From assembly GCA_017431005.1 (NCBI GenBank), contig JAFRLY010000012.1:53483-117482 (forward strand): DNA of 64,000 bases, read 5' to 3'. The notes beneath the pieces are model-generated. The model ran no database searches. It saw only the letters and a list, made by a program, of their open reading frames with translations, and was not told the DNA's origin. Each line of letters begins with the position of its first letter. Position 1 is the first letter of the stretch. Position numbers and translations under genes: made by a program. The DNA comes from Clostridia bacterium. GTDB taxonomy: Bacteria > Bacillota > Clostridia > Christensenellales > Aristaeellaceae. Positions 36,911-50,749 of this stretch are shown here, piece after piece.

Positions 36911-36942
36911 AGGCAGGTTCGTGCGAACCTGCCTGGTTTTTT
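36911..36942 (+). terminator. Terminator of the polysaccharide deacetylase gene
   Basis: Stem AGGCAGGTTCG/CGAACCTGCCT with a 2-base centre, followed by GGTTTTTT. Its end overlaps the stop of the convergent ABC gene. Confidence 0.85.
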
Positions 36943-38836
36943 ATGCCAGCTGCAGCTGATACAGTTTTTTATAAATACCGTCCTGGTTCAGCAGCTCCTG
37001 ATGTGTTCCGCTTTCCCTGATCCTTCCGTGATGCATGACAATGATCCGGTCGCAGTGCTGGATGGTGGACAGTCTGTGGGCAACCATGATGCTGGTTCGC
37101 CCTTTCATCAGGTGCGCAACCGCCTCCTGAATCCATTGCTCCGTCTCCGTATCAATATTTGCGGTGGCTTCGTCGAGAATCAGAATCGTCGGATGATAGG
37201 CCAGGGTTCTGGCAAAAGAAAGCAGCTGCCGCTGTCCTGCTGAAAAAGTGGAGCCGCGTTCGGTAACCCTGGAAGCGTACCGGTAAGGCAGCCGTTCAAT
37301 AAAGCGCGCTGCATTGACCTCCTCAGCCGCTTTCCGGATGTCTCCGTCCGTAATGGATTCATCCCGCAGCCGTATGTTGGACGCGATATCGCCGGTAAAG
37401 AGGAAAACGTCCTGCTGAACCTGACCCACTGCCCGTCGGATCTGTTCCCGGCTCATGTCCCGGATATCCACGTCGTCGATCTTAATGGAGCCCTTCTGGA
37501 TATCGTAGTATCTGCCGATCAGATTCAGGATTGAACTTTTCCCGGCTCCTGTCGCCCCGACAAAGGCGACAGACTGTCCCGGCTCAATTGTAAAACTGAC
37601 ATCCTTCAGAACCCAGTCTTCCTCATCTCCGCTGTAGGAAAACCAGACATGATCAAAAGTAATCTTCCCTTTGATTTCCGGCAGCAGCACCGGATGATCC
37701 TCCGCGGGGATCAGCGGTTCTGTATCCAGCAGAGTAAAGATCTTTTCCGCTGCGGATATGGCGCTTTGAAGCGTTGTGAACTGTTCCGCCAGCTCCTGAA
37801 TCGGTTCAAAGAAGGAATTGATATACTGCAGAAAAACATACAGGGTGCCCAGCGTAATTGTGCCGTGAAGTACGGATGTACCGCCGCTTACCATAATAAT
37901 CATCAGAGCGCCAATGCTCAGCAGATAGATCAGGGGACGGAAAATCGCGAACACCATCATTTCCCTGAAGCTCGCGCGGTACAGGCTGCCGCTCCGCTCC
38001 TCAAATTCCAGGAACTTCTTTCGTTCCTGCCCGAACACCTGAATCACCTTCATGCCGGATATATGCTCACTCAGGAAGGTATTCAGGGCTGTCAGTCTGG
38101 TTCGTGTCAGCCGGTAAGCCTTCCGGCTGATCATCCGGAAAACCAGGGTCAGCACTGCCACAACGGGCAGCAGTATAAAGCTGAAAAGAGCCATCCGGGT
38201 GTTCAGGCTCAGCATAATGATGGCAAGCCCGAACATCTTGACCACATTTCTGAACAGTTTGATCAGAATATTGGAAAAAACTTCGTTTATGGCTTCCACA
38301 TCATTGGTCAGCCGCGTCACGATTTTTCCGACCGGTGTCGTGTCAAAAAAGCGCATGGTCAGACTTTCCACATGCCGGAAAAGCTGGTTTCGCATCTCAT
38401 AGACAATATCCTGACCCATCTTCTGAAGCAGCAGCGTCTGCGTCCGGTTGCAGAACATAAGCAGCACAAGGACCAGCAGATAAAAACCGCCTGCTGTCAG
38501 CACGCCCTGAAAGCGCGCCTCGGCCTGTTCCCCCGGTTCCCACAGTTCCCGTCCCGCCTTCAGAAGACCAGGGTCTGTTTCACCGGTAATGAACCGGTCG
38601 ATAGCATTCCCGATGATCATGGGCCGGATCAGCTCCAGGGCTGTCAGAGCCAGAACAAGCGCCAGGCAGATGATAAAGGTCCTGCGGTGCGGCTTCAGAT
38701 ACGTCAGTAGACGTTTCATCGGTTTGCCGTGATATTGAATATCCTCCCGTTCCTCATCCTGCAGCCGGAAAAGATCAAGGAACTTTTCCCGCAATGTCCG
38801 CTTCCCGGTTGCGGCGGATCTGTTCTCAGACTTCAT
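36941..38836 (-). CDS. ABC exporter half-transporter (canonical ATPase site)
   Basis: 631-residue fused membrane-ATPase exporter. Six helices (about 52-350) precede the ATPase: Walker A GATGAGKSS, Q-loop VQQDVFLF, signature FSAGQRQLL and Walker B ILILDEATANID with the catalytic Glu. It overlaps its partner's stop by 4 nt and pairs with it as a heterodimer. Such LmrCD/BmrCD-type pumps move lipids, peptides or drugs; substrate unknown. The signature Ser-Ala-Gly-Gln is a common variant. Confidence 0.9.
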   Translation of the reverse strand: MKSENRSAATGKRTLREKFLDLFRLQDEEREDIQYHGKPMKRLLTYLKPHRRTFIICLALVLALTALELIRPMIIGNAIDRFITGETDPGLLKAGRELWEPGEQAEARFQGVLTAGGFYLLVLVLLMFCNRTQTLLLQKMGQDIVYEMRNQLFRHVESLTMRFFDTTPVGKIVTRLTNDVEAINEVFSNILIKLFRNVVKMFGLAIIMLSLNTRMALFSFILLPVVAVLTLVFRMISRKAYRLTRTRLTALNTFLSEHISGMKVIQVFGQERKKFLEFEERSGSLYRASFREMMVFAIFRPLIYLLSIGALMIIMVSGGTSVLHGTITLGTLYVFLQYINSFFEPIQELAEQFTTLQSAISAAEKIFTLLDTEPLIPAEDHPVLLPEIKGKITFDHVWFSYSGDEEDWVLKDVSFTIEPGQSVAFVGATGAGKSSILNLIGRYYDIQKGSIKIDDVDIRDMSREQIRRAVGQVQQDVFLFTGDIASNIRLRDESITDGDIRKAAEEVNAARFIERLPYRYASRVTERGSTFSAGQRQLLSFARTLAYHPTILILDEATANIDTETEQWIQEAVAHLMKGRTSIMVAHRLSTIQHCDRIIVMHHGRIRESGTHQELLNQDGIYKKLYQLQLA

Positions 38837-40617
38837 ACGGATTCACCTCCCTGCTGATCCTCCGGATGCTCAGCCTGCAGCTGCTTTTCAAGCTGCTGCT
38901 TGTCGAAGATTGTACGGTATATGCCGCCAAGTTCGAGCAGCTCCTGATGTGTGCCGTATTCCGCCTGGGTTCCGTCGTCCAGCACCAGAATATGGTCTGC
39001 ATGCTGAATTGTTGAAATCCTGTGCGCGATGATTATGGTTGTTTTTCCTTTTCTGGCCGCTTTCAGGTTTGTCAGGATTCTTTCCTCGGTGTCCGTATCC
39101 ACAGCGGACAGCGCGTCGTCGAGGATCAGCACAGGAGCGTCCCGCATCAGCGCTCTCGCGATCGCAATCCGCTGCTTCTGACCCCCGGAAACGGTCACGC
39201 CGCGTTCTCCCAGCATCGTCCGGTACTGATCCGGAAACGCCATGATATTATCATCCACATCAGCGTTTCTGGCCGCCGCACGAATTTCCTCCGCGGTTGC
39301 CTTTTCCGCGCCGAAGGCGATGTTATTTTCAATTGTATCGCTGAACAGGAATGAATCCTGCGGCACATAGGCCAGATCCCGGTGCAGCACGCTCAGTGGG
39401 ATATCCCGCAGGGGATGCCCGTCAACGCGGATCATCCCGGGCTGTTCCGTATCCCATAATCTTTCCAGCAGATTCATCAGTGTGGTTTTTCCGCAGCCGG
39501 TCCGGCCAACCACCGCCAGACTTTCCCCTGCCCGGACGCGCACGCTGATATGGCTCAGTGCCAGTGTCTCGGTCTCAGGATATCTGAAGGAAAGGTCGTC
39601 AAAAAGGATATCCCCCTTCAGGCTCGTCACAGCGGGATCACCCCGGTCAATAATATCCGGTTTTTCGTCAAGAATCGTCCGGATACGCCGCAGGGAAGCC
39701 ATCCCCTGGCTGAAGTTGGACACGCTCTCCCCAACGGCAATCATAGGCCATACCAGCATGGTAACATAGCTGTTGAAGGTAACAAACTGTCCGACTGTGA
39801 TCTCGCCGTATATGGCCATCCTTCCGCCGAACACCAGCGTCATCAGCAGCGACAGTCCGACGACCAGATCCAGCATCGGCAGTACGAGCGCAATCAGCCG
39901 CACGACGTTCAGGTTTTTCTCCCGGCTGCTATTGTTGGCTTTTGCAAAAGCTGCCAGTTCCTTTCTTTCCTGTACAAAGCCCTTGATCACCCGGATGCCG
40001 CTTACAGCCTCCTGTGTCTGATCCGTCAGCCCGGAAAAAGCCTCCTGCCTGGCCAGAAACCGTCTGTGCATATTTTTGCCGAACCATACATCCCCGAAAA
40101 TGATAATAATCATCGGGATCACCGCAATCATCGTCAGCCGGAAGCTGACAAACCGGATCATATTGGTCAGCACAAGCACAAGCATGACAGAGGCGTCAAA
40201 GGTAGTAATCACCGTTCCGCCCATCAGCCCCCGGACCGCACCCAGGTCATTGGTGAAATGAGCCATCAGATCTCCGGTTTTGTGCTGATTGAAATAAGAC
40301 ATGGACAGGGTTTCCAGGTGCTCGAAAAGATCGCTTCGCAGGTCCCGTTCCACCAGGCGTGCCGCGCCGAAAAGAAAAACACGCCAGCCGAATCTGCCAA
40401 GCATGATCAGCGTGCCCATTCCCAGCAGTCTCCAGGCAATTTCCCAGATACCTCCTGCGTTCAGGATTCCCTGGGCCAGACCGTCCGTCAGCTGACCGGA
40501 AAGCTTGGGAACCTCGGCATTAACCTGATCCACCAGAAAAAGGGCGGCAATGCCCAGCACATACCGCCACCAGTATCTTATCACATAATGAAGCGCAAGC
40601 TTCAGTTCCCTCTTCAT
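38833..40617 (-). CDS. ABC exporter half-transporter (degenerate ATPase site)
   Basis: 594-residue partner of the 36941-38836 gene, with six helices (about 15-310) and an ATPase with GRTGCGKTT, YVPQDSFLF, VSGGQKQRI and VLILDDALSAVD. The catalytic Glu after Walker B is Asp, the usual mark of the non-hydrolysing site in heterodimeric exporters. Promoter just upstream; transcribed with its partner. Not part of the aro operon, whose last gene ends 93 bp before it. Confidence 0.9.
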   Translation of the reverse strand: MKRELKLALHYVIRYWWRYVLGIAALFLVDQVNAEVPKLSGQLTDGLAQGILNAGGIWEIAWRLLGMGTLIMLGRFGWRVFLFGAARLVERDLRSDLFEHLETLSMSYFNQHKTGDLMAHFTNDLGAVRGLMGGTVITTFDASVMLVLVLTNMIRFVSFRLTMIAVIPMIIIIFGDVWFGKNMHRRFLARQEAFSGLTDQTQEAVSGIRVIKGFVQERKELAAFAKANNSSREKNLNVVRLIALVLPMLDLVVGLSLLMTLVFGGRMAIYGEITVGQFVTFNSYVTMLVWPMIAVGESVSNFSQGMASLRRIRTILDEKPDIIDRGDPAVTSLKGDILFDDLSFRYPETETLALSHISVRVRAGESLAVVGRTGCGKTTLMNLLERLWDTEQPGMIRVDGHPLRDIPLSVLHRDLAYVPQDSFLFSDTIENNIAFGAEKATAEEIRAAARNADVDDNIMAFPDQYRTMLGERGVTVSGGQKQRIAIARALMRDAPVLILDDALSAVDTDTEERILTNLKAARKGKTTIIIAHRISTIQHADHILVLDDGTQAEYGTHQELLELGGIYRTIFDKQQLEKQLQAEHPEDQQGGESV

Positions 40618-40709: not shown

Positions 40710-41147
40710 TCAGCGGGAAGAAATGTCCTTCACCAGATCCTCCATCGCCTTCAGGTATCCGTCAAATCCCATGCCGATATAGTGTCTCCCGCAGGCCATT
40801 CCCGCGTAGGATATGCTGCGGAAGCTTTCTCTTTTCGTCACGTCGCTGATATGAACCTCCGCCGCGGGCAGGGCCGCCGCCTTCAGGGCATCCAGGATTG
40901 CGATACTGGTATGGGTATAGGCAGCCGGATTGATGACAATGGCGTCCTCCTGCCCCAGTGCCTGCTGTATTCTGGTGACAATATCCCCCTCGCTGTTGGA
41001 CTGAAAGATGGATACTTCAACCTGCAGCTCCTCAGCTTTCCTGCGGATCATCCTGCACAGATCGTCATAGCTGCTGTTCCCGTAGATGCCCGGTTCCCGT
41101 ATTCCCAGCATATTCAGGTTCGGCCCGTTAATCACCAGGATTTTCAT
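40710..41147 (-). CDS. aroQ: 3-dehydroquinate dehydratase, type II
   Basis: 145-residue enzyme of the shikimate pathway converting 3-dehydroquinate to 3-dehydroshikimate. MKILVINGPNLNMLGIREPG, FQSNSEGDIV, INPAAYTHTSIAILDAL and EVHISDVTKRE with the catalytic His are typical. GGGAGG lies seven bases before the ATG at 41147; upstream in-frame codons are in the aroEK tail region. Last gene of the aro operon. Confidence 0.96.
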   Translation of the reverse strand: MKILVINGPNLNMLGIREPGIYGNSSYDDLCRMIRRKAEELQVEVSIFQSNSEGDIVTRIQQALGQEDAIVINPAAYTHTSIAILDALKAAALPAAEVHISDVTKRESFRSISYAGMACGRHYIGMGFDGYLKAMEDLVKDISSR

Positions 41148-41185: not shown

Positions 41186-42442
41186 TCACAGGCCTGCCGT
41201 CCCGGGAGCTCTTCTCTCCCATTCTGTCAGAATCTGCGCTGCGGCTTCTTCCGGCTGCCGGTTCCCGATCAGAGCATCCCGCCACGCTTCATAAAGAGGC
41301 CTCCTCGTTCCGTACAGCTGCTCCCATTTTTCCCGGCTGTCGCTGAGCGGCCGTCCCGGCCCGAGTGTGCTGTCATCCATCCCGCGGTCCAGATGGAACA
41401 GCAGACCGTTTTGTCTCAGCAAATCGCGGTTTTCAGGCCGGGTGACCGCTCCTCCGCCGGTAGCCAGAATGACACCGGTCAGTTTCCCGGCTGCCCGCAG
41501 CGCATCCGTTTCCAGGGAACGGAAAGCGTCTTCGCCGCGCTGCCGGATGATGTCCCCGCAGGAAGCACCTTCTTTTTCTTCAATCATTTTATCCGTGTCC
41601 AGCAGCTGTCTTCCGGTTCTCTGCGCCAGAATTCTGCCGACAGTAGTCTTCCCGCACCCCGGCATCCCGATCAGCACGATGTTGACCGTTTTCCGCGTCA
41701 GGATCCCTGTGACCCTTTCCGTCTCTGCTTCAGGAATTCTTTTCTCCAGGAACAGCCCGCAGGCTTCCCGCGCCTGTTCAGTCAGCATATACAGTCCGTT
41801 GATGGCCGGGATACCCCTTCTCTCAGCCTCCAGGAGAAGAGCCGTCCTTGCCGGATTGTAAATCAGATCGGCAACTCCTTCCAGTGCGGGCAGCACGGCA
41901 AGCTCCAGCGGAGCTGCTCCGTTGTTCGGATACATTCCCACCGGTGTCGCGTTGATCAGCAGTCTGGCATCCCTGTGCCGGCTCAGATTCTGATAGTTGT
42001 CCTCTCCGCTCCTTGAAATGACCCTGACTTCAGCCGCTCCCAGGTCCTTCAGACAGGTCACTGCGGTTTTTGAGGCGCCGCCGCTTCCCAGCACCAGGCA
42101 TTTCTTGCCGGAAGGATTCATTCCCGCCCGCCGGAGCATTCCCAGAAATCCGGCATAATCCGTATTGTAGCCCCGAAGCTTCCGGTCTTCCCCCCGCACT
42201 ATTGTATTGACGCTTCCGATTCTCCGGGCGGTTTCGGATATTTCATCCAGGAAGGGCATCACTGTCTGCTTATAGGGGATCGTCACGTTGATGCCCCTGA
42301 AGGATCCTTCCCGCAGAAAACGCGGCACCTCCTCCGGTGTAAGCTCTGCCAGCCGATAATCATAGCCGCCGATTTCCCGGTGTATTTCAGCGGAGAAGCT
42401 GTGGCTGAGTTTCGCTCCGATCAGTCCGTATTCCATACTCAT
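41186..42442 (-). CDS. aroEK: Fused shikimate dehydrogenase and shikimate kinase
   Basis: 418-residue two-domain enzyme. Residues 1-250 are AroE: GAKLSHSFSAEIH for shikimate, the catalytic Lys in NVTIPYKQ, GYNTDYAGF, the nucleotide-binding GSGGASKTAV and NATPVGMYP. Residues about 252-418 are AroK: P-loop GMPGCGKTT, DTDKMIEEKEG, FRSLETDAL and ATGGGAVTRPENR. Both domains look complete, so one polypeptide makes shikimate and then its 3-phosphate. ATGA overlap with pheA. No frameshift at the joint. Confidence 0.95.
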   Translation of the reverse strand: MSMEYGLIGAKLSHSFSAEIHREIGGYDYRLAELTPEEVPRFLREGSFRGINVTIPYKQTVMPFLDEISETARRIGSVNTIVRGEDRKLRGYNTDYAGFLGMLRRAGMNPSGKKCLVLGSGGASKTAVTCLKDLGAAEVRVISRSGEDNYQNLSRHRDARLLINATPVGMYPNNGAAPLELAVLPALEGVADLIYNPARTALLLEAERRGIPAINGLYMLTEQAREACGLFLEKRIPEAETERVTGILTRKTVNIVLIGMPGCGKTTVGRILAQRTGRQLLDTDKMIEEKEGASCGDIIRQRGEDAFRSLETDALRAAGKLTGVILATGGGAVTRPENRDLLRQNGLLFHLDRGMDDSTLGPGRPLSDSREKWEQLYGTRRPLYEAWRDALIGNRQPEEAAAQILTEWERRAPGTAGL

Positions 42443-43581
42443 ATGATCTCCGAATAGCTGCCGAGATAGGAAAAATGATCCAGTGTCACTTCCAGTTCAT
42501 TTATCAGCCGGATAAATGACGGGGAATAAACGGAAGCGTCTATGTCAAAATAGAACATGAACTCGAAGTCCCGTCCGGGCATCGGACGGCTTTCAAGCTT
42601 GCTCAGGTTGATTCCCTGTGCGTTGAACTGTCCCAGAATCTGATACAGGGAGCCCGGGCGGTCAGGCAGAACCAGCATCAGGCTGGTATGATCCGCTCCC
42701 GGATAAATCTCAGGCTTCTTGGATATGCAGATAAACCGTGTATGGTTGTTGCTGTTGCTCTGTATTTCCTCTTCCAGACATTCCAGGCCGTACAGGGCCG
42801 CGCAGTTTCCGCTGGATATGGCTGCCACGTCATTTCTGCCGCTTTCAGCGACCATTTTCGCTGCGGCTGCTGTATTGCTGCATATATTCACATGCCATTC
42901 CTTGTGTTTGGCCAGGAATCCCGAGCATTGCTGAATTGCCTGCTCATGGGAATAGACCTCCCGGATCTCCTCCGTTCTGACGCCGGGTTTCACCAGCAGA
43001 GTATGATCAATCTTGATCCGGGCCGACCGGACAATATAGAAGTGATGGCTGATCATCTGATCGTAAACGCTGTTTACAGACCCGGCAAGAGAGTTTTCAA
43101 TCGGCAGAATGCCATACCGGCACAGACCGCTCTCAATTGCACTGAATACACTTTCAAAATTCTTGCAGTACATAATGGAAGGCGCCTGAAAAATCTTCTC
43201 GCAGGCAATCTGGGAATACGCGCCTTCCACCCCCTGGCAGGCCACCATCGCCCTGGAAGGAAACAGCTGATTTGTCGTTTCCATAGTCTTCCGGATTTCC
43301 TGTTCCAGCTTTCCCTCCGGACGGCCGGCCATCAGTTGCCGGCTTCTGCTCTGTGCCATCAGCATGCTGAATAGAGCCCGAACCCCATTCTCATTCTCAG
43401 GCCCGGCCTGATCCCCGACCTTGTTCAGGAGTTCCCTCTCCCTTTCTGTATCAAGTACCGGCAATCCCTTTTCCTTCTTGTATGCGCCGATCTGAGCGGC
43501 TGTATCCATCCGCTGACCGTAAAGTGCGACGATCTGGCTGTCAATGGCGTCAATACGGCTCCGCAATTCAGTAATGTCCAT
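42439..43581 (-). CDS. pheA: Bifunctional chorismate mutase and prephenate dehydratase
   Basis: 380-residue enzyme of phenylalanine synthesis. Residues 1-85 are an AroQ-type chorismate mutase (MDITELRSRIDAIDSQIVALYGQR), about 105-285 the dehydratase (QGVEGAYSQIACEKIF, ILPIENSLAGSVNSVYD), and the last 90 an ACT domain with RPGSLYQIL and LSKLESRPM, where Phe feedback normally binds. Ribosome site GGAGG is seven bases before the ATG. Lies 70 bp after aroC without a terminator. Confidence 0.96.
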   Translation of the reverse strand: MDITELRSRIDAIDSQIVALYGQRMDTAAQIGAYKKEKGLPVLDTERERELLNKVGDQAGPENENGVRALFSMLMAQSRSRQLMAGRPEGKLEQEIRKTMETTNQLFPSRAMVACQGVEGAYSQIACEKIFQAPSIMYCKNFESVFSAIESGLCRYGILPIENSLAGSVNSVYDQMISHHFYIVRSARIKIDHTLLVKPGVRTEEIREVYSHEQAIQQCSGFLAKHKEWHVNICSNTAAAAKMVAESGRNDVAAISSGNCAALYGLECLEEEIQSNSNNHTRFICISKKPEIYPGADHTSLMLVLPDRPGSLYQILGQFNAQGINLSKLESRPMPGRDFEFMFYFDIDASVYSPSFIRLINELEVTLDHFSYLGSYSEII

Positions 43582-43651: not shown

Positions 43652-44728
43652 TCATTCTGTCAGCTGATCCAGCAGAACCAGCGCGGTCACCGCTTCCACA
43701 ACGGGAACGGCTCTGGGAACAATGCAGGGATCGTGTCTTCCCTGAATCGTCAACTCCTCCGGTTCCATCGTTCGCAGATTTACGCTCTGCTGTTTTTTTC
43801 CGATGGAAGGTGTCGGCTTGAAGGCCGTCCTCAGAATCAGCGGCATACCTGTGGTTATTCCGCCTGCAATACCGCCGGCATGGTTGGTCAGCGTACATAT
43901 TTTCCCGTCTTTCACTGTATATCCGTCGTTGTGTGCTGAGCCGCGCATTCTTCCGGCGCCGAAGCCGTCTCCGAATTCCACGCCTTTAATGGCGGGAATC
44001 GCAAACAGTGCTGCAGCCAGAGCACTCTCCAGCCCCTCAAAAAAAGGGCCCCCGATGCCGGCCGGAAGTCCGGTGGCAATGCATTCAACAATCCCGCCGA
44101 CGGAATCCTGCTCATTTCGCGCGCCTGCGATCTCAGCCAGCAAAGCGTCCTTATCCTCCGGGTTCAGAACAGGAAAACCATTTTGCAGCAGTCTGGCGAT
44201 ATCACCAGGGGATATTTCTGCCGGATCCGGTATGCCGGAGGCTTCGATTTCACCGATGCGCCGGATATACGCGCCGACAAGTATGCCGCGCGTTTCGAGC
44301 ATTTGCAGTGCGATACCGCCGGCAATGCACAGCGGCGCAGTCAGCCTGCCTGAAAAAGGGCCGCCTCCCCGTATGTCATATGCCTCACCGTATTTCACCA
44401 TGGCAGGCCAGTCCGCATGAGAGGGGCGCGGTACATCCCGGAACGGAGCGTAATCACTGCTGCGTGTATCCCGGTTGCGGATCACTGCGCAGACCGGTGC
44501 GCCGCATGTCACGTCCTCTGTCAGCCCGCTCAGGAATTCCGGGATATCCGGTTCCTTCCGCGCCGTGGTGTAGGCTCCCTGTCCCGGAGCGCGTCTTTTC
44601 AGGAAATCGTGAAGCTTGGGCATATCCACCCGGAAGCCTGCCGGAAGCCCGTCTATGACTGCTCCGATCGCGGGTGCATGAGACTGGCCGAAAACTGTAA
44701 CCTGGATATGCTTTCCGTGAAAAATCAA
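43652..44728 (-). CDS. aroC: Chorismate synthase
   Basis: 358-residue FMN-dependent enzyme that turns EPSP into chorismate. FGQSHAPAIGAVIDGLPAG at the N-terminus, RRAPGQGAYTTARKEPD, ARNEQDSVGGIVECIATG and SVNLRTMEPEEL are present. The start is TTG at 44728, overlapping the aroA stop (TTGA) with GGAGG eight bases upstream; no ATG is available for another 35 residues. Confidence 0.95.
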   Translation of the reverse strand: MIFHGKHIQVTVFGQSHAPAIGAVIDGLPAGFRVDMPKLHDFLKRRAPGQGAYTTARKEPDIPEFLSGLTEDVTCGAPVCAVIRNRDTRSSDYAPFRDVPRPSHADWPAMVKYGEAYDIRGGGPFSGRLTAPLCIAGGIALQMLETRGILVGAYIRRIGEIEASGIPDPAEISPGDIARLLQNGFPVLNPEDKDALLAEIAGARNEQDSVGGIVECIATGLPAGIGGPFFEGLESALAAALFAIPAIKGVEFGDGFGAGRMRGSAHNDGYTVKDGKICTLTNHAGGIAGGITTGMPLILRTAFKPTPSIGKKQQSVNLRTMEPEELTIQGRHDPCIVPRAVPVVEAVTALVLLDQLTE

Positions 44729-45987
44729 CGCAGCACCCTCCCCTCCAGTGCTTCAAACTGCTCAAAAAAGCCGGGATAAGACTTGCTGACGCATTCCGCC
44801 CCGATAATGTTCACCGGTTCCCCGGCTGCAGTTGCCGCCACAGCGGCTGCCATTGCAATCCGGTGATCCCGGAATGAATCTGCCGTTCCGCCCTGCAGCC
44901 CGCCTGATCCGTGAATAATCATTTCATCCTCTGCCGAATCCCCGGCTCCGCCCAGAGAGCGAATCAGCGCCAGTACGGATTCCACACGGTCGGATTCCTT
45001 CAGCCGCAGACGGCGGATATGTCTGAACCGCGTATCCCCCTCAGCGCAGGCTGCGGTTACAGCCAGCACCGGCACAAGATCAGGAATATCGGAAGCGTCT
45101 ATATCTATGCCATGCAGGCGGCTCCGCCTGACTGTAACATTCTCCCCTTCTGCGGCAGTCTCTGCCCCGAATTGCTGAAGCAGCGTCAGAATGGCGCGGT
45201 CTCCCTGAGCTGATTCTGTATTCAGCCCCCGGCAGGTCACGCCGGTGTCGCTCAGAGCGCCGGCCGCCAGCCAGAAAGCGGCGCCGGACCAGTCAGCCTC
45301 CACGGAGATGTTGCCGGGGCTTCTGAATGTCTGTCCGCCCTTGATGAAAAATGTATTCTCCGTTCTCTCTGTCTGAATGCCGAAAAGCCGGAGCGTGTTC
45401 AGTGTCATATCCACATAGGGTTCGGATTCCAGTCTGCCCTCAGCCTCGAGCCGGCTGTTTTCCGGCAGCAGGGGCAGCGCCATCAGCAGGCCGCTGAAAA
45501 ACTGAGAGGACACGCCGCCAGTCAGCCTGTACATGCCTCCGCTCAGTTTTCCGGATACATGCAGAGGGAAGTTCCCCTGAGGTGACAGGACTGCTCCGTG
45601 GGCCTGAAGCTCCTCATACAGCGGGGAAAGCGGCCTGGAAGCCAGTTTCCCCCGTCCGGTAAAGGATACGGACATTCCTCTTGCAGCCGTAGCGGGAAGC
45701 AGGAATCGCAGGGTGGAACCGCTCTCTCCGCAGTCCAGAAGGCATTCCTTCCGGGGTGTTTCGCCTTTTTTCAGAAGGCAGGCCCTGTCAGCCCTCCGGA
45801 TTTCAGTCCCCATCGCCTCCAGGCACCGCAGCGTTGCTTCGGTATCCTCTGACGGCGGCAGATTGCTGATCCATGTTTCGTCCGTCGTCTGAGCGGCGCA
45901 GATCAGCAGCCTGTGAGCCTGGGATTTGGAAGTCATCATATGCTCTACAGTCCCGCGCAGGGCTCCCGGCTGAATCATAAGATTCAC
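44725..45987 (-). CDS. aroA: EPSP synthase (3-phosphoshikimate 1-carboxyvinyltransferase)
   Basis: 420-residue enzyme joining PEP and shikimate 3-phosphate; target of glyphosate. SKSQAHRLLICAA, LDCGESGSTLRFLLP and SFRDHRIAMAAAVAA are conserved. The start is GTG at 45987: it overlaps the aroB stop as GTGA and has GGAGG ten bases upstream. The first substrate loop is SKSQAHR rather than the common SKSxSNR, and the Gly around residue 95 (DCGESGST) is intact. Confidence 0.95.
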   Translation of the reverse strand: MNLMIQPGALRGTVEHMMTSKSQAHRLLICAAQTTDETWISNLPPSEDTEATLRCLEAMGTEIRRADRACLLKKGETPRKECLLDCGESGSTLRFLLPATAARGMSVSFTGRGKLASRPLSPLYEELQAHGAVLSPQGNFPLHVSGKLSGGMYRLTGGVSSQFFSGLLMALPLLPENSRLEAEGRLESEPYVDMTLNTLRLFGIQTERTENTFFIKGGQTFRSPGNISVEADWSGAAFWLAAGALSDTGVTCRGLNTESAQGDRAILTLLQQFGAETAAEGENVTVRRSRLHGIDIDASDIPDLVPVLAVTAACAEGDTRFRHIRRLRLKESDRVESVLALIRSLGGAGDSAEDEMIIHGSGGLQGGTADSFRDHRIAMAAAVAATAAGEPVNIIGAECVSKSYPGFFEQFEALEGRVLR

Positions 45988-47045
45988 AGGCCCGTCACCT
46001 CCCCGTCGCAGCACTGGATAATCTCTGCAAGTCGATTTGCCGGCACCTGCAGAAGTCTGCACCTGCCGCGGGCTTCCGGAAGCACGAGTGTGATGCTGTC
46101 CCCTCTGCGTTTTTTGTCGTTCATTGCAGCCTGCGCGATCTGTGCAGCCGTAAATCCGGTGGTGACGGGAAGTCCCCGGACCGTCAGCAGCTTCTTCAGT
46201 TCCTGAAAGATGCCCGGAGGACAGAGCTTTCTGCTTTCTGCGGCTTTGGAAGCAATCAGCATCCCGATCGCAACGCCCTCTCCGTGATAGATCGCGTAAT
46301 GATTCAGCTTTTCCAGGGCATGTCCGAAGGTGTGGCCGAAATTCAGCAGCTGCCTGAGTCCCTTTTCGTATTCATCCTGCCGGACGATGTCCGCCTTGAA
46401 CCGGATGTTGTCTGCAATCAGATTCTTGGGATCCTCCCCAGCCAAAATACGGTCCAGCAGCACGCCTCCGCTCAGAGCTCCGTGCTTGATCACCTCCGCC
46501 ATACCCTCCGCGTAAACCGGTCCGGGCAGCGTGTCAAGCGTGTCCGTATCGCACAGCACGAGTCTGGGCTGGTGAAAAGCGCCGCACAGGTTTTTCCCGT
46601 TCCGGAGATTTACAGCTGTTTTTCCGCCGACGGAAGCGTCCACCATGGACAGCAGGGTGGTTGGCAGCTGAACGAAATCAGTCCCACGCTGATAAAGCGC
46701 AGCTGCAAGCCCCGTCAGATCGCCTGTCACGCCGCCTCCCAGCGCCGCGAAAACATCGCTGCGTGTCATTTCCGCCCGGTCCGCAGAATCGAGCAGCTTC
46801 TCCACAGTCGAAAGAGTTTTGGAGTCCTCACCGGCAGAAAATACAAAGCAGCTGACCTGAAAGCCGGCATGTCTGTAGCTTTCGGATACTTTTTCCAGGT
46901 ACAGCGGCGCCACATGGTCATCCGAGGCGATCAGCACCCGCCTCCCTTTCAGCAAAGCCGCAGTCCTGGTGCCGGCTTCAGTCAGCAGACCACCACCGAC
47001 AACTGCCTCATAGCTGGGAGATGTCTGTACGATTATGCTCTCCAT
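45984..47045 (-). CDS. aroB: 3-dehydroquinate synthase
   Basis: 353-residue NAD- and metal-dependent enzyme that closes DAHP to 3-dehydroquinate. ALGGGVTGDLTGLAAALYQRG, PTTLLSMVDASVGGKTAVN, AEVIKHGAL and NFGHTFGHALE show the NAD- and zinc-binding residues. Overlaps tyrA by 13 bp at the 5' end and aroA by 4 nt at the 3' end. Confidence 0.96.
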   Translation of the reverse strand: MESIIVQTSPSYEAVVGGGLLTEAGTRTAALLKGRRVLIASDDHVAPLYLEKVSESYRHAGFQVSCFVFSAGEDSKTLSTVEKLLDSADRAEMTRSDVFAALGGGVTGDLTGLAAALYQRGTDFVQLPTTLLSMVDASVGGKTAVNLRNGKNLCGAFHQPRLVLCDTDTLDTLPGPVYAEGMAEVIKHGALSGGVLLDRILAGEDPKNLIADNIRFKADIVRQDEYEKGLRQLLNFGHTFGHALEKLNHYAIYHGEGVAIGMLIASKAAESRKLCPPGIFQELKKLLTVRGLPVTTGFTAAQIAQAAMNDKKRRGDSITLVLPEARGRCRLLQVPANRLAEIIQCCDGEVTGL

Positions 47046-47884
47046 TCCACATCAATCTCCTCTTTCCGTTCCCTTCCTTCTTTCAGCAGCTGTTTCAGTT
47101 CCGCTGCGTTTCCATCCCTGATCGCGTCCCGGTATTCGCAAAGGGACTGTATGATGGTATCAAGCTCAGCTCCCAGAAAGTCTGCGTTGGCCAGAAACAG
47201 CTCCGTCCACATGGTCTCATTCAGCCTGGCCACCCGTGTCAGGTCTCTGTAGCTGCCTGCGGAAAAGCTCCGATGTTCCCTGGCGGTCGGAGATTTGATA
47301 TAGGCATTGGAAACCGCATGAGCCAGCTGGGATGTAAAGGCGATCATCCGGTCATGCTTTTCCGCCGTAGTTATGGACACGGTCTGAAACCCCACCCTGT
47401 GCAGCAGCTCACTGAGCCGGCTGATCCGGAAAAGATCCTCTCCTTCCCGGGGCACCAGCAGCATGGTGGCGTCCATATACAGGTCTCCCGCGGCATATTT
47501 GATGCCCGAAAACTGCTTGCCTGCCATGGGATGGCCGCCGATAAATGTGAATCCGTACTGCTCCGCCAGCTGAAAGCACGGGACGCAGACTGCCCGTTTC
47601 ACGCCGCACAGATCGCATACGATGGTATCCCGCCGGATCATGGATGCCCTTTTTTTCAGTTCCAGAACAGCACCCTGCGGATAGGTCGCCAGAAACAGGA
47701 AATCACATTCCGGCAGGTTGTCGTCCGTCAGAGGTTCTGCAATCGTTTTTGTCAGCTGCGCATATTCCTGCACCTTTGCGTCCGCGTCCACACCCAGAAC
47801 CCGGCATCCCGTTCTTTCCAGCGCCTTGCACAGGGATCCGCCCATCAGCCCAAGTCCAATCACGCCCGCTGTAATCTGTTCCAT
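47033..47884 (-). CDS. tyrA: Prephenate dehydrogenase
   Basis: 283-residue NAD-dependent enzyme leading prephenate to 4-hydroxyphenylpyruvate, the tyrosine branch. GVIGLGLMGGSLCKAL is the nucleotide-binding start; GHPMAGKQFSGIKYA holds the catalytic His; the helical dimer domain follows. No ACT domain is fused. GGAG lies eight bases before the ATG; 33 bp after aroF. Confidence 0.94.
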   Translation of the reverse strand: MEQITAGVIGLGLMGGSLCKALERTGCRVLGVDADAKVQEYAQLTKTIAEPLTDDNLPECDFLFLATYPQGAVLELKKRASMIRRDTIVCDLCGVKRAVCVPCFQLAEQYGFTFIGGHPMAGKQFSGIKYAAGDLYMDATMLLVPREGEDLFRISRLSELLHRVGFQTVSITTAEKHDRMIAFTSQLAHAVSNAYIKSPTAREHRSFSAGSYRDLTRVARLNETMWTELFLANADFLGAELDTIIQSLCEYRDAIRDGNAAELKQLLKEGRERKEEIDVEWRA

Positions 47885-47917: not shown

Positions 47918-48922
47918 TTACTGAATGACTTCCCTTACGCGGCGCACAGCGGCCGCAACCTCGGCAAACTGCTCCGGCGTCAGGGACTGGGGCCCGTCGC
48001 ACAGTGCGTGCTGGGGATCATTGTGCACCTCAATCATGATACCGTCTGCCCCGCAGGCCGCTGCGGCCAGGGACATCGGCCGCACATATCTAGCTGCCCC
48101 GGTCGCATGGCTCGGATCCACAACCACAGGCAGGTGGCTCAGTTCATGCAGCACGGCCACAGCGGACAGATCCAGTGTGTTCCGCGTATATGTCTCATAT
48201 GTTCTGATCCCCCGTTCACACAGAATGACCTGCTCGTTTCCTCCCGCCATGATATACTCAGCGCTCATCAGCAGTTCCTTGATCGTGTTTGCCAGGCCGC
48301 GCTTCAGCAGAACCGGCTTGTGCAGCCTGCCCAGTTCCTTCAGCAGTTCAAAGTTCTGCATGTTCCGGGCGCCGACCTGGATGATATCCACCTCTTCAAA
48401 CAGCGGCAGATGACCGATATCCATGATTTCGGTGATAATAGGCATTCCGGTGCGCTGTTTGGCCTCCAGCAGGATCCTGATACCTTCCTCGTGGAGACCC
48501 TGAAAATCGTAGGGAGAGGTTCTTGGCTTGAAAGCTCCGCCCCGCAGAACGCCCGCCCCGCTCTGCTGAACAGCACGAGCTATCACACTGACCTGCTCTT
48601 CCGATTCCACGGAACAGGGCCCGGCAATCAGCTGAAAGTTTCCGCCCCCGAAAGCAACCTGATCCGTAACCCGTACCACGGTATCATCCGGATGAAATTT
48701 ACGGTTTGCCTTTTTGAAGGGTTCAGAAATCCGGGTGACACTCTCCACAATGTCCAGCCCGCTGATCAGGTCCGTGTCAATTCTGGTTGTGTCGCCGATC
48801 AGGCCGATAATCGTCTGAAACTCACCTTCAGAAATATGCGTACGCACACCGTAGCTTTCCAGCCAGTGAATCAGATGCTCCTGTTCTTCCTTCCGGACCT
48901 GGTTTTTCAGCGCGATAATCAT
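47918..48922 (-). CDS. aroF: DAHP synthase, first enzyme of the shikimate pathway
   Basis: 334-residue type I-beta synthase joining PEP and erythrose 4-phosphate. An N-terminal ferredoxin-like regulatory domain (about 1-75) precedes the barrel: IAGPCSVES, RGGAFKPRTSPYDFQG, GARNMQNFELLKE, KRGLANTIKE, DPSHATG. The ATG at 48922 follows GGGAGG at seven bases; the TTG six bases earlier abuts it. As the first gene after the attenuator, it and all genes downstream are predicted to respond to charged Phe and Tyr tRNA levels. Confidence 0.96.
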   Translation of the reverse strand: MIIALKNQVRKEEQEHLIHWLESYGVRTHISEGEFQTIIGLIGDTTRIDTDLISGLDIVESVTRISEPFKKANRKFHPDDTVVRVTDQVAFGGGNFQLIAGPCSVESEEQVSVIARAVQQSGAGVLRGGAFKPRTSPYDFQGLHEEGIRILLEAKQRTGMPIITEIMDIGHLPLFEEVDIIQVGARNMQNFELLKELGRLHKPVLLKRGLANTIKELLMSAEYIMAGGNEQVILCERGIRTYETYTRNTLDLSAVAVLHELSHLPVVVDPSHATGAARYVRPMSLAAAACGADGIMIEVHNDPQHALCDGPQSLTPEQFAEVAAAVRRVREVIQ

Positions 48923-48968
48923 ATGCAATCCTCCCTGTTTACTGTCGGATCCTTTCGGTCGGATCCGC

Positions 48969-49002
48969 GGTACAAAAAACGGCCCGCGGTAATCCGCGGG
49001 CC
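48969..49002 (-). terminator. Attenuator terminator of the aro operon
   Basis: 9-bp perfect stem GGCCCGCGG/CCGCGGGCC around ATTA, then CGTTTTTTG on the minus strand. It stands between the leader peptide stop and aroF (about 45 bp before the gene). Part of its 5' arm and loop (48988-48998) is the alternate pairing region. Confidence 0.92.
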
Positions 49003-49079
49003 CTCAGTCTCTTTTCGTCAATTCCTGAAAAGAAGCCATGCGCAAATTACCTTACCCCGTTACTTCTTCATAAAGGTAA
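48988..49079 (-). promoter_or_regulatory. Mutually exclusive leader helices of the aro attenuator
   Basis: On the minus strand, segment 1 (TTACCTT, 49073-49079, inside the Phe-Thr-Phe codons) can pair with AAGGTAA (49047-49053). The overlapping segment 2 (GGTAATTTGCG, 49041-49051) can instead pair with CGCGGATTACC (48988-48998): 11 bp including two G-T wobbles. The second pairing uses one arm and the loop of the terminator, so it is an antiterminator. A ribosome held on the Tyr/Phe codons would mask segment 1 and favour it; one at the stop codon would mask segment 2 and favour termination. Confidence 0.8.
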
Positions 49080-49116
49080 AGTAATAATAATACGCGAAAC
49101 CGTTGAACTGTGCCAT
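49060..49116 (-). CDS. Phe/Tyr leader peptide of the aro operon
   Basis: 18-residue peptide MAQFNGFAYYYYFTFMKK: four Tyr in a row and four Phe, so eight aromatic residues in 18. Start ATG at 49116 with AGAGG eight bases upstream; stop TAA at 49060-49062. It begins about 41 nt after the predicted transcription start. Analogous in design to the E. coli pheA leader peptide, but the Tyr codons point to combined Phe and Tyr sensing. Not expected to have a function as a protein. Confidence 0.9.
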   Translation of the reverse strand: MAQFNGFAYYYYFTFMKK

Positions 49117-49163
49117 GCTTCTTTCCTCTCTGCAGTACGGGCTTTCACCCTTTTGACTGGCAC

Positions 49164-49192
49164 ATTGTACCACTGCCGGGTCCCCGCCGCAA
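49164..49192 (-). promoter_or_regulatory. Promoter of the aro operon
   Basis: Minus-strand TTGCGG (49187-49192), 17 bp, TACAAT (49164-49169). The predicted start is near 49157. Confidence 0.7.
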
Positions 49193-49249
49193 GAGGCCGC
49201 CGGGAAAGGTACAGTGAAAAAACACACGGCATGTTTTTATATTTTTCCC

Positions 49250-49278
49250 TTGTATCCCCTGCCCCGGTTTGATATAAT
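49250..49278 (+). promoter_or_regulatory. Promoter of the PrsA-like foldase gene
   Basis: TTGTAT (49250-49255), 17 bp, TATAAT (49273-49278). Diverges from the aro promoter. Confidence 0.75.
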
Positions 49279-49369
49279 ACCAGAAGTTTTTCATGTGGAA
49301 ACAGTCTCCGCCGCGATGTATTCCGGCTGAGCTTTTTCCCGGCACTATTAAATGAACGGAGAGATTTTT

Positions 49370-50749
49370 ATGCAAAAGAAAGCTTTGCTGGCGCTGATGC
49401 TCGCCGCAACCCTGCTGCTGAGCAGCTGTGCTCTGGTCGTGAAGGACGCCGCGGTTGACGCGCAGACAGTTATCATCCGCAAAGGCGATACAACCGTCAC
49501 CAAGGGTGAAGTTCAGAAAGCGGTTCTGGATCAGCTGAATTATACCGCCTACATGTATTCCATGTATGGCATGTCCTATGATCCCACGGACGCCGCCAAT
49601 ATTGCCACTGCACAGAGCAGTGCCATTTCCGCGCTTGAGGAAGACATCGTCACAAAAGAGCACATCGCTTCCGATCTGGAGGCGCTTACGGAAGAGCAGC
49701 TTGCTGAAGTTCAGGAAACCGCTCAGTCCAATTTTGATGCCGACATTGAGGCTGTAAAATCCTATCAGTTCGCAGATTCCGAGCTCGAAGGCGATGCGCT
49801 GACAGAAGCGGCGAAAGCCTGGATGGACGAACAGGGCATGACCCTTGATGCCTATGTGCAGAATGCAACCGAATCCAAGCAGCGTGAGCTGCTTCGGGAA
49901 CTGGTCATAAAGGATGTTGAGGTAACCGAGGAGGATTTCCTTGCGGAATACAATTCCCGTGTTGAGTCTGCCAAAACATCCTATGATGGGAACCCGGCTT
50001 CCTACGCCACTGCCGTTAACAACGGATCCACCGTCTACTACGCGCCGGAAGGAGTCCGCCGTGTCAAGCAGATTCTGACCAAATTCCACGATGATGACCA
50101 GACGGCCATTAATGACGCCAACGCGAAAGTTACTTCCGCCAACAGCGCTGTGACCGCTGCCAATGCCAAGATCACCTCCGCCCAGGAAATCCTGGATACG
50201 GAAAACGCTTCTGAAGAGGATAAGGCCCAGGCCCAGACGGATCTGGATGCCGCCAACGCCGAGCTGGAAACCGCCAATGCCGATCTGGCTGCAGCGCAGT
50301 CCGAACTGGAAGCCGCCCGTGAAACCGCTTTTGCCAATATAGAAGAAGAAACAGACGCAATCCTGGCCGAACTGGCTGACGGCGCCGACTGGGATACGCT
50401 GATGGCTGAAAAGAATCAGGATCCCGGCATGAAGAGCGGCACGGCTGCTGAAAAAGGCTATGCCGTTGCCGCCGATATGACCTCCTTCGATTCCGCTTTC
50501 GTTGAGGCAGCCATGGGACTTGAAAACATCGGAGATATTTCCGGTAAGATCCGCGGAGATGCTTACGGCTATTACATTATCAAGTACATCGGCGACGAAC
50601 CTGTCGGAGAAATCGGTCCGGAGGCTGTGCGGGAAACGCTTACCAGCTCACTCCTGAGCACGAAGCAGTCCACCTTCTACAACGATACGCTCGCTCAGTG
50701 GGTGGAGGATGCCAAGTTCCAGGTAGACCTGAACGCGCTGAAAGACTGA
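49370..50749 (+). CDS. PrsA-like peptidyl-prolyl isomerase lipoprotein with coiled-coil insert
   Basis: 459-residue exported foldase. Signal peptide with lipobox LSSC (Cys20). An N-terminal SurA/PrsA-like helical part (about 30-225) leads into a parvulin (PpiC) domain that is split: VRRVKQILTKFHDDD near 229-243, then an 80-residue Ala/Glu/Asn-rich coiled coil (about 245-325), then ADGADWDTLMAEKNQDPGMKSGTAAEKGY and the rest to about 425. The ATG at 49370 has GGAG eight bases upstream. Probably helps fold secreted proteins outside the membrane. Whether the split domain is active is open. Confidence 0.85.
   Translation: MQKKALLALMLAATLLLSSCALVVKDAAVDAQTVIIRKGDTTVTKGEVQKAVLDQLNYTAYMYSMYGMSYDPTDAANIATAQSSAISALEEDIVTKEHIASDLEALTEEQLAEVQETAQSNFDADIEAVKSYQFADSELEGDALTEAAKAWMDEQGMTLDAYVQNATESKQRELLRELVIKDVEVTEEDFLAEYNSRVESAKTSYDGNPASYATAVNNGSTVYYAPEGVRRVKQILTKFHDDDQTAINDANAKVTSANSAVTAANAKITSAQEILDTENASEEDKAQAQTDLDAANAELETANADLAAAQSELEAARETAFANIEEETDAILAELADGADWDTLMAEKNQDPGMKSGTAAEKGYAVAADMTSFDSAFVEAAMGLENIGDISGKIRGDAYGYYIIKYIGDEPVGEIGPEAVRETLTSSLLSTKQSTFYNDTLAQWVEDAKFQVDLNALKD

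Follow-up and report, generated by a model that had tools for sequence, protein, structure and literature searches.

The stretch of DNA analysed here (the window, 64,000 nucleotides) carries on its minus strand an operon of eight genes that leads from DAHP synthase to chorismate, phenylalanine, and tyrosine. The genes were named by NCBIfam family models, which bear out the gene content given in the original prediction, with two of the eight falling under strict cut-offs.

47918..48922, minus strand: aroF, DAHP synthase, gene 1 of the operon; NF006421 and TIGR01361 above cut-off.
47033..47884, minus strand: tyrA, prephenate dehydrogenase-like; best E value 5.8e-41, below the equivalog cut-offs, the name resting on family likeness.
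45984..47045, minus strand: aroB, 3-dehydroquinate synthase; TIGR01357 above cut-off.
44725..46020, minus strand: aroA, EPSP synthase, with a provisional start codon; TIGR01356 above cut-off.
43652..44728, minus strand: aroC, chorismate synthase; TIGR00033 above cut-off.
42439..43581, minus strand: pheA, a chorismate mutase-prephenate dehydratase fusion; NF008865 above cut-off, matches to chorismate mutase domains below theirs.
41186..42442, minus strand: aroE-aroK fusion, shikimate dehydrogenase and shikimate kinase; both families matched below their cut-offs, the name resting on family likeness.
40710..41147, minus strand: aroQ, type II dehydroquinase, with which the shikimate run ends; TIGR01088 above cut-off.

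Downstream of aroQ, in the same orientation, come two ABC transporter genes (36941-40617, minus strand). They may be divided from aroQ by a weak terminator-like site at 40690-40674, but such sites are no commoner there than expected by chance. On the other side of the operon, the region upstream of aroF holds the following leader features.

49164..49192, minus strand: probable promoter, TTGCGG (49192-49187), a 17-nt spacer, and TACAAT (49169-49164).
49125..49128, minus strand: Shine-Dalgarno sequence GAGG of the leader ORF, 8 nt upstream of it.
49060..49116, minus strand: leader ORF MAQFNGFAYYYYFTFMKK, 18 codons, with ATG at 49116 and TAA at 49062-49060.
49075..49085, minus strand: segment 1, AUUACUUUACC, in the Tyr11 (part)-Tyr12-Phe13-Thr14 codons, with covariation to segment 2.
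49041..49056, minus strand: segment 2, GGUAAGGUAAUUUGCG, the strand common to helices 1:2 and 2:3.
49006..49037, minus strand: spacer hairpin UUCUUUUC...GAAAAGAG between segments 2 and 3, which shortens the antiterminator loop.
48988..48998, minus strand: segment 3 core, CGCGGAUUACC, the antiterminator partner of segment 2.
48974..49002, minus strand: intrinsic terminator, with a 9-bp all-GC stem (49002-48981), the loop AUUA, and six T residues (48979-48974).

The original prediction described an 18-codon peptide with four consecutive tyrosines and four phenylalanines followed by an intrinsic terminator before aroF, and both were recovered: the ORF at 49116-49060, preceded by GAGG, has tyrosine at codons 9-12 and phenylalanine at codons 4, 7, 13, and 15, and the terminator lies at 49002-48974, its hairpin 57 nt from the leader stop codon. 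In the interval 48900-49350 one terminator was found against 0.7 expected, a count that on its own is not above chance. The predicted promoter is present as TTGCGG-N17-TACAAT, but it is weak, agreeing with the consensus at 8 of 12 positions and falling under the threshold of a consensus scan, which missed it; inspection by eye finds a better block, TTGCCA-N17-TAGAAT, at a similar placement in congeners. The neighbour upstream of the leader is a divergent gene (49352-50749, plus strand), so that only transcription beginning at the leader should be subject to this terminator.

Searches with known families returned little. No Rfam family reached its gathering score on the window or on the leader, and no T-box (RF00230) match was found on 48930-49230 at E values up to 5. 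The Trp_leader model (RF00513) scored 16.5 bits on the leader against a gathering score of 41, the Leu_leader model (RF00512) likewise fell below gathering, and one long leader peptide gave no NCBIfam family matches.

Segment 2 has two alternative partners. In helix 1:2, it pairs over 11 bp with segment 1, and the region of Phe15-Met16 and the stop codon contributes an inner extension of 4 bp. This pairing had been predicted, but its site was put in the Phe-Thr-Phe codons, whereas we find it in Tyr11 (part) to Thr14 (49085-49075). In helix 2:3, which is also of 11 bp, GGUAAUUUGCG pairs with the segment 3 core at 48998-48988, in agreement with the proposal that segment 2 can capture an arm and the loop of the terminator; the core takes in five bases from the 5′ arm of the terminator, all of its loop, and two bases from its 3′ arm. 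The predicted energies are -13.3 kcal/mol for helix 1:2, -23.9 kcal/mol for helix 2:3 together with the spacer hairpin, and -22.6 kcal/mol for the terminator.

The order in which these structures would appear was modelled by stepwise folding of transcripts of seven lengths, with an assumed ribosome footprint of 14 nt. With no ribosome, or with a ribosome at Met1 to Gln3, the 11-bp helix 1:2 is predicted at all lengths, followed by the terminator. For stalls at Tyr9 to Lys18, the first two to four of the seven lengths, at which the terminator is still incomplete, have the 11-bp helix 2:3 as their best fold. With the ribosome at the stop codon, helix 2:3 is down to eight pairs at the first length and absent at the next, and the terminator wins. 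Folding in this way fits the classic attenuator logic codon by codon, although the codon boundaries in this model are soft, given that helix 2:3 is also the best fold at one length for a stall at Phe4 and at two lengths, the same number as for Tyr10 to Phe13, for stalls at Phe7 and Ala8. In these upstream stalls segment 1 would be wholly or largely exposed, and helix 1:2 could form before segment 3 is made. The complete terminator belongs to the best fold in every case modelled. Because the finished terminator is the most stable structure throughout, antitermination must be kinetic, and kinetic switching is textbook attenuator behaviour.

The leader thus combines the features by which an attenuator is recognised: a short ORF with a Shine-Dalgarno sequence and a run of codons for the products of the pathway; a terminator between this ORF and the first structural gene; and, as computed, an antiterminator that excludes the terminator and is itself excluded by a protector helix. 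In the folding, given the assumed 14-nt footprint, a stall at cognate codons frees segment 2 and a ribosome at the stop codon masks it.

Conservation of the leader was assessed in relatives in which aroF was detected. The genus contributed 25 such genomes out of 41 searched, the family 40 out of 60, and the class 214 out of 292. From 229 aroF upstream regions, 223 had at least 250 nt and 211 of these were nonredundant; named loci are the best 80 of 592 confirmed aroF candidates. A leader was called when the last 400 nt contained an ORF 10-45 codons long that had a Shine-Dalgarno-like site and five or more Tyr/Phe within ten residues. Such an ORF occurs in 138 of the 211 regions, compared with 4.3 in dinucleotide shuffles and four on the opposite strand, and the stricter demand for at least six Tyr/Phe in ten gives 122 against 0.9 and one, respectively. 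In 136 of the 138 leaders the aromatic codons are followed by a terminator-like hairpin, and a terminator score of at least 20 was reached by 127 of 135 leaders, where shuffles predict 1.05. These figures supersede an earlier count of 90/116, in which near-duplicates were included, the Shine-Dalgarno site was optional, and at least one chance ORF (L079, by eye) was present. Rfam found no known leader family at gathering score on 20 related loci.

If the two pairings matter, segment 2 should be fitted to both of its partners, and this was examined with an alignment-free test in which partners were swapped between leaders matched for GC content and length. For helix 2:3, the leader's own partner beats the median foreign partner in 118 of 128 cases (p 1.6e-21). 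For helix 1:2, a leader's own segment 2 fits its own codon arm above the foreign median in 107 of 129 (p 1.8e-17). The parts of segment 2 used by the two duplexes coincide in 120 of 135 leaders. An earlier run with 81 leaders, superseded by this larger one, gave z values of -14.5 and -16.3 relative to permutation; the own partner was the single best of the 81 in just 12 cases for helix 2:3 and 13 for helix 1:2, as expected if relatives share sequences. A MAFFT alignment of whole leaders from the genus put the codon arms out of register, and pairs were consequently not counted on it, partner swaps being used instead.

Covariation was further examined in seven distinct cores, drawn from 11 leaders of the genus and its nearest relative and registered by hand, a procedure that leans towards the structure. 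In the helix 2:3 cores, five pairs show two-sided changes and 100% of cells are paired, and none of 500 shuffles scored as high on any measure. The helix 1:2 cores show two pairs with two-sided changes and 97.4% of cells paired; 154 of 500 shuffles reached the counts of two-sided changes and pair types, so that the hand-registered covariation for this helix, taken alone, is modest, but the covariation score is unusual, with three of 500 shuffles reaching it. In L128 and L145, GGUAAGGGUAU replaces GGUAAGGUAAU in segment 2, and both the codon side and the terminator side are changed to match. All 11 genus and family leaders are predicted to form a hairpin in the interval from segment 2 to segment 3, with a sequence that varies from leader to leader. 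Both sequence-based checks attached to the original prediction, that relatives should carry aromatic short peptides upstream of aroF and should retain the alternate pairing, therefore came out in its favour, the latter through coevolution of both helices.

A covariance model run on the 41 genomes of the genus gave 11 strong matches (at least 58 bits), all adjoining aroF, an association with aroF that follows by construction; the telling point is that under strict filters no second strong copy turned up elsewhere in these genomes. Twelve further matches, scoring 24-29 bits, were discarded as implausible. Of the 25 genus members with aroF, 11 carry the leader and 14 lack it; in the latter, aroF stands behind another gene (in several cases an unrelated one) or behind a bare promoter-like stretch. 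In L039 and L141, a terminator-like hairpin about 120 nt upstream of aroF resembles that of the leader by eye, with no aromatic ORF found; it is possibly a decayed leader. Also by eye, a block near TGTATTTCTTCTGCA recurs upstream of the -10 box in L122, L123, L124, L126, L129, and L132 as well as in the leaderless L127, L130, L133, and L134, and might represent an operator or UP element.

For the class, 89 loci were sampled, namely the 29 best matches and 60 picked to cover families with their upstream DNA unseen, a non-random set in which some genomes occur twice. The leader is present in 57 of the 87 loci with enough DNA and in 31 of 41 families. Among the 30 misses, L162, L199, L211, L220, and L223 have an aromatic ORF that is longer or lacks a Shine-Dalgarno site. 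At E values up to 0.001, Rfam placed a T-box at two of the 30 leaderless loci (L203 and L214) and at none of the 20 scanned among the 57 leader loci; at gathering score, on 20 mixed loci overlapping those scans, the only Rfam match was the T-box of L214. The statement in the original prediction that aromatic operons in Firmicutes are usually under T-box or TRAP control thus fails for aroF in the sampled Clostridia, where leaders are common and T-boxes few. Named strains with the leader among the best 80 of 592 candidates include Sporobacter termitidis, Angelakisella massiliensis, Emergencia sp., and Yanshouia hominis. In the named nonredundant loci from the same best 80, tyrA is the first recognised downstream operon gene in 44 of 53 with the leader and 17 of 25 without it, and operon layout therefore does not separate the two. 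A contig labelled Treponemataceae (L041) has a Tyr/Phe-rich ORF before aroF with no recognised Shine-Dalgarno site, which could reflect either horizontal transfer or a misassigned bin.

The codons carried by these leaders bear on which amino acids are sensed. Both tyrosine and phenylalanine occur in 134 of 135 Clostridia peptides, with means of 4.94 Phe and 3.97 Tyr codons per peptide, and both kinds of codon lie inside the helix 1:2 arm in 117 of the 135. Tryptophan occurs in 18 peptides and is absent from the present leader. No chorismate-binding protein of the TrpE kind (PF00425) was found in the present genome, which is 85% complete, and this suggests that tryptophan is salvaged rather than synthesised; a search of the genome for a trp operon leader was dropped for this reason. 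Five T-box-like elements, all under the Rfam gathering score, occur in this genome: L117 (T-box 1501-1749, gene 38-1420), L120 (T-box 1501-1744, gene 1857-2402), L119, L118, and L121. They precede genes for a TrpB-like PLP enzyme (by eye; PF00291), a TrpP transporter, alaS, an HTH-cupin-AMP-binding protein, and a thrS-like protein (L121, by eye).

The relation between Trp codons and tryptophan synthesis was examined in 49 class genomes, counting Trp anywhere in the peptide and using a trpE cut of 470 bits that was our own choice; four of 53 rows had been dropped, two without a usable leader and two with a weak trpE. Genomes with Trp-codon leaders are trpE-positive in 11 of 15 cases as compared with 13 of 34 for the remainder (Fisher p 0.024, uncorrected for kinship), which is only a hint that Trp codons in the leader track trpE. 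The Trp-codon leaders in trpE-positive genomes are L183, L188, L189, L190, L191, L198, L207, L212, L213, L228, and L232, and four others come from genomes that are not trpE-positive.

These observations make it very probable that the leader is a ribosome-mediated transcription attenuator of the eight-gene operon. The ORF, the terminator, the alternative pairings, their coevolution, the operon content, and the folding order are computed, and from them we infer the start site, ribosome coupling, and amino-acid response. RNA polymerase would start near 49157, and a ribosome would translate the 18-codon leader. When charged tRNA-Tyr or tRNA-Phe is scarce, the ribosome would stall in Tyr9-Phe15 and cover segment 1; the freed segment 2 would pair with segment 3 once this is transcribed, the terminator would come too late, and the operon would be read. 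When both tRNAs are charged, the ribosome would reach the stop codon and cover the 5′ half of segment 2, the terminator would form, and transcription would end near 48974. Without translation of the leader, helix 1:2 would form, and the terminator with it.

Among the alternatives, the one closest to this mechanism is that the leader responds to a single amino acid, mainly tyrosine, with the other aromatic codons serving base pairing. The Tyr run does overlap segment 1 directly, and the upstream Phe4 and Phe7 codons leave this segment exposed. Folding nevertheless yields the antiterminator for stalls at Phe13 and Phe15 too, Phe codons are commoner than Tyr codons across Clostridia, with both present in nearly every peptide and in most pairing arms (134 and 117 of 135), and the operon makes both amino acids; we therefore consider a single-amino-acid response unlikely. 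Far less probable is a TnaC-like arrest peptide that senses free phenylalanine or tyrosine, or another ligand, in the ribosome tunnel rather than tRNA charging. Ligand-sensing arrest peptides exist, and beyond their existence nothing in our analysis favours one here: by eye, no fixed motif runs through the peptides, which vary in their length, their order, and their flanking residues; Tyr/Phe density and RNA pairing are the features preserved.

Two further possibilities would deprive the ORF of its regulatory role. A constitutive partial terminator next to an unrelated small protein could result if terminator and ORF arose separately, and some members of the genus seem by eye to keep the terminator without the peptide (L039 and L141), but segment 2 coevolves with both of its partners and the two pairings overlap, leaving this reading about as improbable as the arrest peptide. 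Least probable of all is a T-box, TRAP-type, or riboswitch leader in which the ORF is incidental. T-boxes are available to the organism, as indicated by the five T-box-like elements elsewhere in its genome; against this reading stand the lack of any Rfam family at gathering score on the leader or the 20 related loci, the absence of T-boxes at E 0.001 from all 20 class leader loci scanned, and the strong enrichment of the leader ORF (138/211 against 4.3).

Leader-peptide attenuation is classic in Proteobacteria, where it is represented by Phe, Trp, his, and ilv leaders. The present leader resembles these attenuators in its ORF of cognate codons, its protector, antiterminator, and terminator hairpins, and its codon-stall logic. 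It differs from them in having a Clostridia host, in mixing tyrosine with phenylalanine, in controlling the route from DAHP synthase to both of these amino acids, and in giving no significant match to the Rfam Trp_leader and Leu_leader models. T-boxes likewise respond to the charging of tRNA and act on amino-acid genes through termination. Unlike the leader described here, T-box riboswitches bind tRNA directly and without translation; none was found on the present leader, and T-box-like elements stand before other genes of this genome.

In Firmicutes, comparable leaders have been described for other amino acids. A His leader in bacilli was called the first outside Proteobacteria and Actinobacteria in 2010 (PMC2965389), C. 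difficile and the B. cereus group are named as having His leaders at hisZ (PMC4833913), His attenuators are listed for 17 genomes from three Firmicutes lineages (PMC9413887), and genetic evidence is presented for a Leu-rich ilv leader in S. aureus (PMC5794164). As these sources describe them, the His and ilv leaders share the principle of leader-peptide attenuation with the present one and differ in amino acid and operon. For aromatic genes, the Tyr operon of the B. cereus group is given as being under T-box control (PMC2494555), and predicted attenuators ahead of tyrA operons are tabulated with their kind unstated in the table (PMC1173090).

Closest to the present leader are upstream ORFs (uORFs) reported from comparative searches. 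Two uORF candidates beside shikimate genes encode phenylalanine and tyrosine, in a study of five genomes of which one is Clostridium novyi (PMC6429828); the passages concerning them name neither genome, mechanism, nor spread, in which respects they differ from the leader family described here, and they may be members of the same family. In the uORFC-13-1 motif, which occurs exclusively upstream of aroF, a uORF with one or more Phe codons lies immediately ahead of a terminator, and control by the speed of phenylalanine incorporation was proposed for this motif (PMC8632094). According to its description, it comprises 24 sequences from Acholeplasma and environmental sources only and goes without mention of Tyr codons, which sets it apart from the present leader. 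A follow-up study reports eight uORF candidates, of which those described sit at ilvB and fthC (PMC11109978). Attenuators of this kind are thus familiar, and uORFs with aromatic codons have already been published for shikimate genes; a Phe/Tyr leader spread across the class Clostridia at aroF, the dual-codon design, and tested alternative pairings did not turn up in the open-access literature searched.

The leader is unexpectedly widespread, and its interest lies in this breadth and in its testability rather than in a new mechanism. A more general proposal, which we regard as plausible though somewhat more likely to be wrong than right, is that leader attenuation by Tyr/Phe codons, with Trp added in lineages that make tryptophan, represents the common and perhaps ancestral control of entry into the shikimate pathway across Clostridia, in which the codons are tuned to the aromatic amino acids made and T-boxes serve those that are imported or salvaged. 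The more than 100 natural variants of this dual-codon sensor are on offer for comparative work. The attenuator reading implies close coupling of transcription and translation on the leader, a testable question outside Proteobacteria. If the general proposal is true, ribosome-coupled attenuation would be mainstream for aromatic amino acid synthesis in Clostridia, a group usually described through T-boxes.
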